Below the pieces are notes generated by a model. It saw only the letters and a list, made by a program, of their open reading frames with translations, searched no databases and was not told where the DNA came from. Shown here piece after piece: positions 5,266 through 16,670 of a stretch of DNA of 37,721 nucleotides (positions are counted from its first letter, which is position 1; every line of letters begins with the position of its first letter). The stretch covers positions 1 to 37,721 of IMG/VR virus record IMGVR_UViG_3300022540_000108. One strand, 5' to 3'. The translations under genes were made by a program, and so were the position numbers. This DNA is from a virus.

Positions 5266-5805
5266 CTACGCTCCTTTCTTGAAGTGGCGTTTAAGTCTCG
5301 CTGTTAAAGTGGGGTCATTGTCATGTACATATACATCTTGATCTTTTAAAACCTCATTCAACTCTTTCTTAGACAGAAAAGGACAGCATGTATAAGCTAA
5401 TAACCTATTAAAGTATGATGTTAAGCTCTCTGAATGATGTGCCATCTCCTGACCTTTACCGTACAAACCACCGCTGTAATTATGTATCATAATGAAAGAA
5501 CAAGGGTTCATAATTAAACTATCACCACTCAAAGCTATCACACTACCCATACTGTAAATACCACCTTCGACAATACATATCACCTCGGCTTCACATTCCT
5601 GCATTGCATTTATAATACTTCTACCTACATCAACACAACCTCCTTCGGAGTTTATATAAAGCAACACTTTATCGTTTGCTGTGTAATGCGGAAACCTAAG
5701 AAAAATATCCTCGTAGTCATCAAATGATGCAATACCACCGTAGATATGGTGTCTATAAACACTAGCTTCTGCACCCTGAATTCTATGCGTATTATCTTCG
5801 CTCAT
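5266..5805 (-). CDS. ClpP-like serine peptidase, 179 aa
   Basis: The ClpP fold signature is clear: LLYINSEGG (residues 48-56, like INSPGG), the nucleophile elbow with Ser85 (GGIYSMGSVI), His108 (FIMIHNYSGG) and an Asp in KDQD (155 or 157), together a complete Ser-His-Asp triad. ClpP forms double heptameric rings and degrades proteins delivered by ClpX or ClpA. Here the gene lies among nucleotide-metabolism genes, not between portal and coat, so it is unlikely to be a head-maturation protease; the P22-type coat does not usually need one. The same early block has a ClpX-like ATPase (14103-15071). Length is near normal, with no long propeptide. Confidence 0.88.
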   Translation of the reverse strand: MSEDNTHRIQGAEASVYRHHIYGGIASFDDYEDIFLRFPHYTANDKVLLYINSEGGCVDVGRSIINAMQECEAEVICIVEGGIYSMGSVIALSGDSLIMNPCSFIMIHNYSGGLYGKGQEMAHHSESLTSYFNRLLAYTCCPFLSKKELNEVLKDQDVYVHDNDPTLTARLKRHFKKGA

Positions 5806-10271: not shown

Positions 10272-12107
10272 TTAATGTGTCTCAGCCCAATTTGAACCTT
10301 TTGCAAATTCCCCTGTAATAGGGACATTTAATTTTAATAACTTACCTGCTTTCATCATTGAAGCAACTGCTAACTCTCCTATCTTATCCGCATCTTCAGG
10401 GTTACATTCTATTTGAAACTCATCATGAAAGTTCCCTACGAACTTATAGTAAAGTTTAGCATCTTTCAACCATTTGTCAAGTACACATAAAGATAATTTC
10501 ATAACAATAGACCCACATGACTGAAATAATGTATTAATTAATGCATGTTTATAACGTACTGTTAAAGATCTGCCGTCAATTGCTGTTATGTGGCCTGAAT
10601 CATCAAACTCATCTTCTAAAGACTTCTTAAGAGCTTTAAGACCTGGATTCGCATCCCAATACTCTTCGTAAACCTGTTTAGCCTGTGCAGTGGCTTTACC
10701 TAATGTGTTGGCAAACTTACCAGCCGCGCAACCGTATGTTATTGCATATTTAGCAGTCTTAGCTGTGTTTCTGTCTACATTAAAGACATCTGCGTTACGT
10801 TGATGAATATCTCCATCAATAAGCTCTTTAGCACTGTCTAAATCGTACTTAGCCACGTAGTGAGCTTCGCATCTCGCCTCTAATGCAGAAGCATCAACCC
10901 CAATTAATATCTTACCCTTAGGGGCTTTAAACAGGCTTCTGAGCTCTTTACCGTAATACACCTTTTTATCTGCTTTTGGTACATTTACTACAATCCTATG
11001 TGTCATGCGCGTCGTATTTGTCATACAAGTGTTAGCTTGCGCTTCAATACGTCCATCATCTCTTATATTACTTATAAAACCTTGTACCTGCGAACGTCTG
11101 TGCTGTGCTTTATTGTATTCAGCAATGTAAGCAATAGCTGGAGTTCCTAGGTCATTGGCAACTACCGACCATTCCTCGGGTGTTGCGGGTAATTTAGGGC
11201 TGGTTTTAACCACCCGGTTGAATTTACACCTCAAAGGTTTACCATGTTTATCTCTTTTAAAGTTCCACTCTGTTGGTTTCCACCCTCTATTCAGTAAGTA
11301 TTCTTTTAACTGGGTTGCACTATTAACACTAATCTTCTCGAACTTAACTCTACAAAAATCACCTACCACTTCATCAAAAGAATCTCCCACCCATCTAGCA
11401 GCATTAACTGTTAGCTCACCGTCTGCTTTAAATGCTTTACAAACACCCTCTTTATAAGGCATAAAAACTTTAATAGGTAAATACTTATGTAACTGTTGTT
11501 CAATATCTTCAATTTTATTTGTAAACGTGTCAACTAAATCATAAGCCTCTTTCAGGTTGAAATCCCAACCGTTATCAGCTTGTTGTTCAACGATGTGCCA
11601 AACCTTATGTTCCATATTAAAGACTTTCTCCATATCTCCACACTCTTCCATGATCTTTAGATATAGTTTAGCGGTAATCTTTACATCCCCTTTACACCTA
11701 TGTAACATTTCTGGTGTATATCTGCTCCAATCTTCATGTACAGGTTTAGCAACACCTAGTCTAACACCCCAAGCAGCTAATCCGTGTTTACCTTTAATTG
11801 TAACTATCTTACCATCTGTGTCAGGATACTTAGCTTGTTCTATATCGGGCCATAGAATACGGGCCATCAGTAATGTATCTCTGTAAAAACCTTCATATTC
11901 AAAACCTAGAAGTTTCTTAAACACTTTTAAATCAAACCCTATACCATTATGCATACATAAAGAATCAACTTGCTGTAAGAACGGTAATAGTTCATTCATG
12001 TTCTCTGGGGTGAATAAATGTAACTTCTTCTTATCGATGTCATAGAAGACAGCACAATGTATTACACTTGGATCCAACCCATCTGTCTCTATATCACCAA
12101 CTATCAT
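10272..12107 (-). CDS. Family A DNA polymerase (T7-like) with 3'-5' exonuclease, 611 aa
   Basis: The N-terminal proofreading domain shows Exo I (VGDIETDG, residues 3-10), Exo II (HNGIGFD, 53-59) and a later Asp-rich Exo III region (HRCKGDVKITAKLY). Polymerase motifs: A (GVDASALEAR, near 400), B (RNTAKTAKYAITYG, near 442-456) and C (GNFHDEFQIEC, near 560). The residue equivalent to E. coli Pol I Phe762 is Tyr, as in T7 polymerase; in surveys of marine viral PolA this state is linked to virulent phages. Length is slightly below T7 (704 aa), so the thioredoxin-binding insertion may be absent. The gene overlaps the upstream 84-aa ORF by ATGA. Confidence 0.95.
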   Translation of the reverse strand: MIVGDIETDGLDPSVIHCAVFYDIDKKKLHLFTPENMNELLPFLQQVDSLCMHNGIGFDLKVFKKLLGFEYEGFYRDTLLMARILWPDIEQAKYPDTDGKIVTIKGKHGLAAWGVRLGVAKPVHEDWSRYTPEMLHRCKGDVKITAKLYLKIMEECGDMEKVFNMEHKVWHIVEQQADNGWDFNLKEAYDLVDTFTNKIEDIEQQLHKYLPIKVFMPYKEGVCKAFKADGELTVNAARWVGDSFDEVVGDFCRVKFEKISVNSATQLKEYLLNRGWKPTEWNFKRDKHGKPLRCKFNRVVKTSPKLPATPEEWSVVANDLGTPAIAYIAEYNKAQHRRSQVQGFISNIRDDGRIEAQANTCMTNTTRMTHRIVVNVPKADKKVYYGKELRSLFKAPKGKILIGVDASALEARCEAHYVAKYDLDSAKELIDGDIHQRNADVFNVDRNTAKTAKYAITYGCAAGKFANTLGKATAQAKQVYEEYWDANPGLKALKKSLEDEFDDSGHITAIDGRSLTVRYKHALINTLFQSCGSIVMKLSLCVLDKWLKDAKLYYKFVGNFHDEFQIECNPEDADKIGELAVASMMKAGKLLKLNVPITGEFAKGSNWAETH

Positions 12108-15444: not shown

Positions 15445-15472
15445 ATTATAACATATATATTTATTTTGTCAA
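15445..15472 (-). promoter_or_regulatory. Strong sigma-70 promoter for early leftward genes
   Basis: On the minus strand: perfect TTGACA, 16 bp, perfect TATAAT in AT-rich DNA. It is divergent from the lysozyme promoter, with -35 elements only 5 bp apart, so the two may compete or share a regulator. Confidence 0.9.
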
Positions 15473-15477
15473 ACACC

Positions 15478-15506
15478 TTGACAGAAGTTTATAAAGGGTG
15501 TATACT
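15478..15506 (+). promoter_or_regulatory. Sigma-70 promoter for lysozyme
   Basis: TTGACA (15478-15483), 17 bp, TATACT (15501-15506). It sits back to back with the early leftward promoter. The leader to the lysozyme start is about 80 nt and contains inverted repeats. Confidence 0.88.
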
Positions 15507-15594: not shown

Positions 15595-16134
15595 TTGAAA
15601 ATGTCTAGAGAAGGTAAGAAATTCTTAGTAGAGTTAGAAGGGGTTTGCTTAACACCATACTTCGACAGTGTTGGGGTTGTAACAATAGGTGTAGGGGCTA
15701 CAAGGTCAGAGATACCCAAGCTTGCTAAGTGGCCTAAGACTAAGAGCATAACAATGGAAGTGGCGTTCAAGCTGTTAAATAAATCCCTTATTAAATACGA
15801 GAATGCAGTGGACAAAGCATTGACTGTTAAAATATCCCAAGAAAAGTTTGACAGTTTGGTGTCTATATGCTATAATATAGGTATCGGAGGCATGAAGAGA
15901 TCAACCTTCATTAAAAGAATTAATAGAGGTGAATCGCCTGTAAGAATCAAGCATGCTATGATGATGTGGAGAAAACCTAAAGAGATAATAGGCAGACGGA
16001 CAAGAGAAGCTGATTTGTTCATGTATGAGAAATACAGATTAAGAGGAACAGCACAGTTGTTCGTAACGAGTAACAAAGGTAGTATATTATGGTCAAAGAC
16101 TAAATCAATTAAATTAGATGATTATATAGCTTGA
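15595..16134 (+). CDS. Endolysin: GH24 lysozyme, 179 aa
   Basis: It cleaves peptidoglycan at lysis. The GH24 catalytic triad pattern is present near the N-terminus: Glu in ELEG, Asp eight residues later in YFDSVG and Thr in VVTIG, followed by ICYNIGIGGMKRSTF, the typical T4/P22-like lysozyme core. No signal peptide is seen, so it needs a holin. The start is probably TTG 15595 because GGGGAG is six bases upstream; ATG 15601 is the alternative. The gene is alone on the plus strand, far from the holin (33.4-33.9 kb), with its own sigma-70 promoter. Its stop overlaps the -35 of the next promoter. Confidence 0.9.
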   Translation: MKMSREGKKFLVELEGVCLTPYFDSVGVVTIGVGATRSEIPKLAKWPKTKSITMEVAFKLLNKSLIKYENAVDKALTVKISQEKFDSLVSICYNIGIGGMKRSTFIKRINRGESPVRIKHAMMMWRKPKEIIGRRTREADLFMYEKYRLRGTAQLFVTSNKGSILWSKTKSIKLDDYIA

Positions 16135-16159
16135 CAAGATAGGATATATAGTGTATACT
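16131..16159 (+). promoter_or_regulatory. Sigma-70 promoter for the structured RNA
   Basis: Perfect TTGACA (16131-16136), 17 bp, TATACT (16154-16159). The expected start is about 16166. The -10 is the left arm of the inverted repeat ATACTTAAAGTAT (16155-16167), found also at other promoters. Confidence 0.9.
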
Positions 16160-16179
16160 TAAAGTATTGAAGAACACAC

Positions 16180-16225
16180 GGCGTTTTGGGTAACATCTCT
16201 GGTTCAATCCCAGGGAGCGCCTCCA
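16180..16225 (+). ncRNA. tRNA-like mini-helix (acceptor plus T-arm with CCA)
   Basis: GGCGTTT (16180-16186) pairs with GAGCGCC (16215-16221) with two G-U wobbles. The T-arm is canonical: TCTGG, loop TTCAATC, CCAGG. It is followed by T and CCA (16222-16225), so discriminator U73 and the 3' end are encoded. Only 11 nt replace the D and anticodon arms. The GGCG/CGCC-U-CCA end resembles tRNA-Cys. A second GGCGTTT (16274-16280) could compete for the same partner strand. This is not a normal tRNA. Confidence 0.75.
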
Positions 16226-16601
16226 GAATATCGTCCAGGGCAGCGGGTCAAACCCGACAAGGTTGCTACCTAAGGCGTTTGAGAGCTGGTCATCTCTTTA
16301 AAGTGACCCCTAATTCATGTGGAATATCGGTAACTAGAGTCGATTAATAAAATATGCTAGTATCTCCTACTGTCCCTACGCTAAATTGGGATAGAGGACT
16401 GGGGAAAAGTTGAGAATAACTGAGTACCGCGAGTTCACTTATTTATAGTCAGAGATTTACTGTTTAGACGACACGCGCTTTCTTCTGACTATTTATAATC
16501 GTAAGGGAAGATTTAAAACTCCTTAAGGTCTTGGACGATATTGCACCAAGTTTAGTGAGAGGTCTAGTAAAAGCCTCAAGTGTATAGCATACACATCTCC
16601 T

Positions 16602-16623
16602 AAGGGCCGCAATGGCCCTTTTT
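16602..16623 (+). terminator. Rho-independent terminator of the structured RNA
   Basis: Stem AAGGGCC, loop GCAAT, stem GGCCCTT, running into five T (16619-16623). It ends the plus-strand transcript 48 bp before the convergent tail genes. The stem could also act weakly on the minus strand. Confidence 0.9.
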
Positions 16624-16670
16624 ATGGACGTTAAAAACCCACCTGAGACTCTTTTTAATCTCGTTAGACA

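Follow-up and report, generated by a model that had tools for sequence, protein, structure and literature searches.

Downstream of the lysozyme gene of a siphovirus-type phage lies a predicted non-coding RNA of about 460 nt, which we tentatively explain as an anticodon-less tRNA-like head, seen by the tRNA machinery of the host, on a large body closed by a long helix. This explanation draws on the anatomy of the sequence, on its excess over chance and on a homologue in a related phage contig, L002, which carries a head in the same place. Judged by sequence, the two RNAs make up a candidate two-member family, new among structured phage RNAs and marked by its tRNA-like head. The window, as we call the whole stretch of DNA analysed, is one viral record of 37,721 bases; its gene set includes P22-coat-like capsid, portal, terminase, primase/helicase and DNA polymerase. 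The features of the locus are compiled in Table 1.

Table 1. Features of the RNA and its surroundings, in window coordinates
Feature	Position	Strand	Remarks
Lysozyme/endolysin gene	15595-16134	+	Directly 5' of the RNA; PHROG 7 endolysin, E 3e-34; L002 homologue, 44% identity
Sigma-70-type promoter TTGACA-17-TATACT	16131-16159	+	11/12 consensus bases; TTGACA at 16131, TATACT at 16159
Predicted non-coding RNA, ~460 nt	16166-16624	+	Promoter/terminator bounds, no credible ORF, fold z -2.6
tRNA-like element (head), 46 nt	16180-16225	+	Ends in encoded CCA; 0/20,000 shuffles
Head acceptor, 7 bp, GGCGUUU/GAGCGCC	16180-16186/16215-16221	+
Head T-arm, 5 bp, UCUGG-UUCAAUC-CCAGG	16198-16214	+	Canonical T-loop UUCAAUC
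Head 3' end	16222; 16223-16225	+	Discriminator U; CCA
Long helix P1, 5' strand	16227-16241	+	Starts one base after CCA; 15 bp with 16528-16542
Second copy of acceptor 5' strand, GGCGUUU	16274-16280	+	Alternative partner of GAGCGCC; could be chance
Conserved block	16326-16368	+	36/43 identical (84%) to L002; blastn E 1e-7
Hairpin S2, ACUAG/CUAGU	16333-16337/16357-16361	+	Nearly invariant 19-nt loop with UAAUAA
Optional helix S1, AUCG/CGAU	within 16326-16368		With S2 would give an H-type pseudoknot
Hairpin HB	16365-16398	+	4 bp, 1-nt bulge, 7 bp, 11-nt loop
Stem-loop AUAGUCAGAG/UUCUGACUAU, 10 bp	16445-16492	+
Long helix P1, 3' strand	16528-16542	+	Pairs with 16227-16241
Intrinsic-terminator-type hairpin AAGGGCC-GCAAT-GGCCCTT, then TTT	16602-16624	+	GC-rich; ends the stretch

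Locus, bounds and folding

The region 16131-16623 sits between the lysozyme gene (plus strand) and the point at which the convergent tail genes (minus strand) end. The observation of a structured non-coding region is confirmed. The stretch 16166-16626 folds above shuffles: it reaches -134.6 kcal/mol, the shuffled mean being -119.2 (z -2.6), and none of 100 shuffles equals it. A first-pass annotation had proposed a promoter, an intrinsic terminator and some 460 nt devoid of a credible reading frame, and these proposals hold. The promoter is present, and its TTGACA overlaps the stop codon of lysozyme. The terminator, a hairpin with a T run, is plausible; the automatic scan passes over it, presumably since the stem takes up two of the five Ts in pairs. 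The open frames comprise 20-53 aa only, and none of them is kept as a protein in L002. Both transcript ends are predictions. Two strong sigma-70-type promoters also face each other head to head at 15445-15506, between the replication genes and lysozyme (12/12 on the minus, 11/12 on the plus strand), and an additional 12/12 site is located within lysozyme at 15848-15876.

The 10-bp long-range pairing noticed earlier (16227-16236/16533-16542) is there and extends to the 15 bp of P1; the 9-bp stem 16445-16453/16484-16492 becomes one of 10 bp when a G-U pair is counted. The pseudoknot that had been deduced from the long-range pairing does not follow from it, since P1 is nested when the RNA takes its minimum-energy fold. 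By itself, the length of P1 carries little weight: 15 bp are reached in 10 of 300 dinucleotide shuffles, if G-U is allowed.

In each RNA an open frame (window 16186-16347, +; L002:11464-11514, +) stops with -S[V/I][T/A]RVD where the conserved loop has its UAA-UAA. As a tag frame, the one in the window, the sole one found, ends in SVTRVD-UAA-UAA, which is not hydrophobic. Coding is unlikely, because it is the first position of the codons that differs between the two phages and L002 has only a short frame.

The tRNA-like head

The most informative feature of the RNA is its tRNA-like head, which the first-pass annotation does not mention. At 16180-16225 a stack of 12 bp is built from acceptor and T stem, with a UUCRANY loop and a terminal NCCA. 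Searched with a rule describing this architecture, the window gives one match, 20,000 dinucleotide-shuffled versions of the region give none, and 3.7 Mb of DNA from other phages gives seven, mostly ordinary tRNAs according to ARAGORN. The head has neither a D arm nor an anticodon arm. ARAGORN reports no tRNA cloverleaf in the window, and none is possible because the 11 nt between the acceptor 5' strand and the T-arm leave no room for the two arms. RNAfold favours another register for the isolated stretch 16180-16229; the minihelix is present in the full-length fold.

The identity bases of the head are U73, G2-C71 and C3-G70, i.e., all three acceptor elements of bacterial cysteine tRNAs (PMC9976931). 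U73 by itself confers cysteine identity on minihelices (PMC9976931). For alanine, the elements are A73, G2-C71, G3.U70 and G4-C69 (PMC9976931), and here the window head fails, having C3-G70 and U73 instead of G3.U70 and A73.

Most likely, the head recruits host tRNA enzymes for processing and perhaps for charging. The predicted cuts are one by RNase P in front of 16180 and one by the tRNA 3'-end enzymes after the CCA at 16225. These cuts would free the body, the first helix of which starts one base past the CCA. The CCA end could possibly be charged, weakly with cysteine in the window RNA and with alanine in that of L002, as the identity bases predict. The window head appears to have lost the tmRNA-specific features and the surface for SmpB; therefore, only a role in tRNA processing or charging would be left to it.

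A short UGGN just 5' of the conserved block (window 16320-16323; L002:11482-11485) complements the NCCA end of the respective RNA's own head, UGGA facing UCCA and UGGU facing ACCA. The complement thus tracks the changed discriminator base and recalls the contact of a T-box; it measures only 4 nt in the window, and we place no weight on it.

The homologue in L002 and tag-less tmRNA domains

L002 was reached via its lysozyme (44% identity) and is related to the window phage also in terminase (45%), capsid and tail proteins. Downstream of its lysozyme it has a promoter with 12/12 consensus bases (10926-10954) and, at 11156-11235, the tRNA-like domain of a tmRNA (RF00023, 68.6 bits, E 3e-26). This domain is tag-less, 17 nt standing where the model has 312 positions for the mRNA-like part. 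It lies a few hundred bases 3' of lysozyme, in the same place as the window head, and displays all four alanine elements. Then follow a structured domain and the 43-nt block shared with the window. The structured domain includes a sub-threshold match to manA RNA right after the tRNA-like domain (L002:11233-11461, +; 27.3 bits against a cut-off of 55.2, E 9e-5) and might be a remote relative of manA in a phage. The L002 RNA continues into a small ORF of 93 aa and could also be a leader.

In both RNAs a helix of 10-15 bp begins 1-3 nt past the CCA. Its 3' strand follows the conserved block in the window but precedes this block in L002, and the enclosed parts differ; because of this placement the two bodies are not fully collinear. 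Within S2 one pair is altered on both sides (A-U/G-C) and one on a single side (U-A/U-G), the pairing being kept. HB follows the same plan in L002 with another sequence (7 bp above the bulge, 11-nt loop, directly after the S2 block), and 6/7 of its upper pairs differ on both strands when the two are aligned by hand with a 2-nt offset. The compensatory changes in S2 and HB, seen between two sequences, are suggestive. The covariation that had been asked of homologues is, thus, partly there: a homologue exists and covaries in part, but a two-sequence covariation statistic is without power, 247 of 500 shuffles scoring as high.

Direct DNA comparison with 50,697 phage records and, separately, with plasmids yielded no useful homologue. 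Scans with a pattern of the conserved block detected no third member in viral contigs (among the matches listed, none other sits in a similar RNA), in 84,980 genomes or in 50 terminase relatives, and the RNA is absent from the tail-protein relatives L005 and L007. A 16-mer shared by L065 and L066, situated in a leader before a capsid-like gene, was taken as chance. L065, a small viral contig, contains a group I intron (5493-5720, -, 105 bits). As for a large structured RNA of a distinct class, the structure, the own promoter and terminator and the lack of an Rfam match stand; the class rests on two members.

The L002 head belongs to the tag-less type of mycobacteriophage DS6A ("standard, no CDS"; PMC4131195, PMC11915505). 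A molecule consisting of the tRNA-like domain only, similar to that of DS6A, is a strong inhibitor of tmRNA; titration of SmpB may be the mechanism (PMC4131195, PMC11915505). By analogy, the complete domain in L002 would be expected to bind SmpB and to damp trans-translation; titration of SmpB/tmRNA is its most likely function.

Such domains are not restricted to L002. The search pattern, a tmRNA tRNA-like domain with an insert of 15-45 nt, matched 55 stretches of viral contigs in IMG/VR. After quality checks, 31 distinct sequences were left, all with seven acceptor pairs and ending in UCC-A (the contigs include L008, L009, L012, L015, L016, L017, L020, L021, L025, L026, L028, L029, L032-L035, L038, L041, L045, L048, L049, L051, L052, L058, L060 and others). 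Six of the new domains, checked against Rfam, score 65.7-78 bits with RF00023. In none of the eight contigs on which ARAGORN was run did it report the domain, and the tag-less domains, therefore, look under-annotated. Only nine unique tmRNA sequences are listed as "standard, no CDS" (PMC11915505). Three of the contigs also contain Pistol ribozymes of 50-62 bits (L026:5916-6012, -; L032:6292-6379, -; L038:10682-10769, +). In L010, L044, L057 and L061, T-arm/CCA halves lie 5' of GGNUUCGACNGG-like halves; these are apparent permuted tmRNAs.

Known RNA classes and competing explanations

The first-pass annotation had been unable to match the RNA to GOLLD or ROOL and had recommended a search with Rfam models of these, of tmRNA and of introns. 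The covariance models have now been run, and no family matches the RNA. For tmRNA (RF00023) this holds at E<=5; neither permuted tmRNA (RF04321), manA (RF01745, with its weak match in L002 only) nor the group I and II introns were found either. A DS6A-type test (UUCGAC D-loop, GGACG junction, short insert) with model R1 finds nothing in the window. R1 was built from 25 tag-less domains with 8 modelled pairs, which makes it mainly a sequence test, and it is poor because the acceptor 5' strands are misaligned. Failing all models, the window RNA is filed under none of tmRNA, permuted tmRNA, GOLLD, ROOL, introns and manA.

With tag-less tmRNA the window head shares being phage-encoded, the missing anticodon arm, the missing tag frame and the CCA. 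In contrast to it, the window head is fused to a large folded body, and G3.U70, A73, the UUCGAC D-loop and the GGACG junction are all missing from it. Like a permuted tmRNA, the window RNA has a T-arm/CCA half 5' of a possible 5' half, here the second GGCGUUU followed by GAGA-loop-UCUC. Its 7-bp upstream partner, however, makes the head self-contained, and a tag with a hydrophobic tail is missing. The L002 body is weakly similar to manA RNA in layout, the window body is unlike it. At most, the window RNA behaves as a tRNA mimic attached to a large RNA.

The likeliest of the rivals, though unlikely in itself, takes the RNA for one of the large ornate phage RNAs akin to GOLLD and ROOL, an RNA-only cage or scaffold with the tRNA-like piece as a passenger. 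Size range, phage setting, own promoter and excess folding would fit; GOLLD and ROOL, too, are large structured phage non-coding RNAs that sometimes bear tRNAs or lie near them. ROOL can have tRNAs beside it; the linkers of GOLLD can hold tRNAs (PMC12286853). The window RNA, however, measures about 460 nt, matches neither model, shows no homology to them and has its tRNA-like element as part of the 5' end; there is no tRNA island, and the RNA is rare, occurring in two phages.

Next comes a regulatory leader or 3' untranslated region acting in cis on lysis or tail genes, possibly a decayed manA relative, which we consider quite unlikely. The weak manA match upstream of the 93-aa ORF in L002 points in this direction, as does the position of the window RNA after lysozyme with no terminator in between. 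Yet the window RNA is followed by its terminator and then by genes on the opposite strand, and a tRNA-like head is missing from the manA RNAs of both cyanophages examined, P-SSM2 and P-SSM4.

That the structure arose by chance in a spacer without coding function is improbable. The long helix alone is indeed matched in 3% of shuffles, but the tRNA-like element, the homology of the syntenic block and the fold z, taken together, argue against it.

Helix H5 of tmRNA presents UAA-UAA in a hairpin loop and, in this, resembles the conserved loop of the two phages. It is, nonetheless, highly improbable that a rearranged tmRNA-like molecule is at work, in which a self-contained head, of cysteine type in the window and of alanine type in L002, precedes a body showing UAA-UAA, and both would cooperate on stalled ribosomes and subvert the host's ribosome rescue.

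Scarcely credible, finally, is an attachment-site remnant, in which a temperate ancestor would have carried along the 3' part of a tRNA gene from its host. T-arm, acceptor and CCA do make up the usual phage attachment core, but we rejected this reading: among 84,980 genomes the 21-mer GGTTCAATCCCAGGGAGCGCC has a single occurrence, outside any tRNA, the 7-bp acceptor partner upstream would be left unexplained, no integrase is seen among the 20 window proteins scanned, and L002 has a whole tRNA-like domain at that place.

We thus prefer, tentatively, the tRNA-like head on a large body. The many tag-less domains suggest that interference of phages with ribosome rescue may be common and under-annotated. 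If the head of the window RNA is processed or charged, it would represent a new phage route of attaching a large non-coding RNA to the tRNA machinery of the host, and it would link the tag-less phage tmRNAs with the large ornate phage RNAs, both of which are poorly understood.
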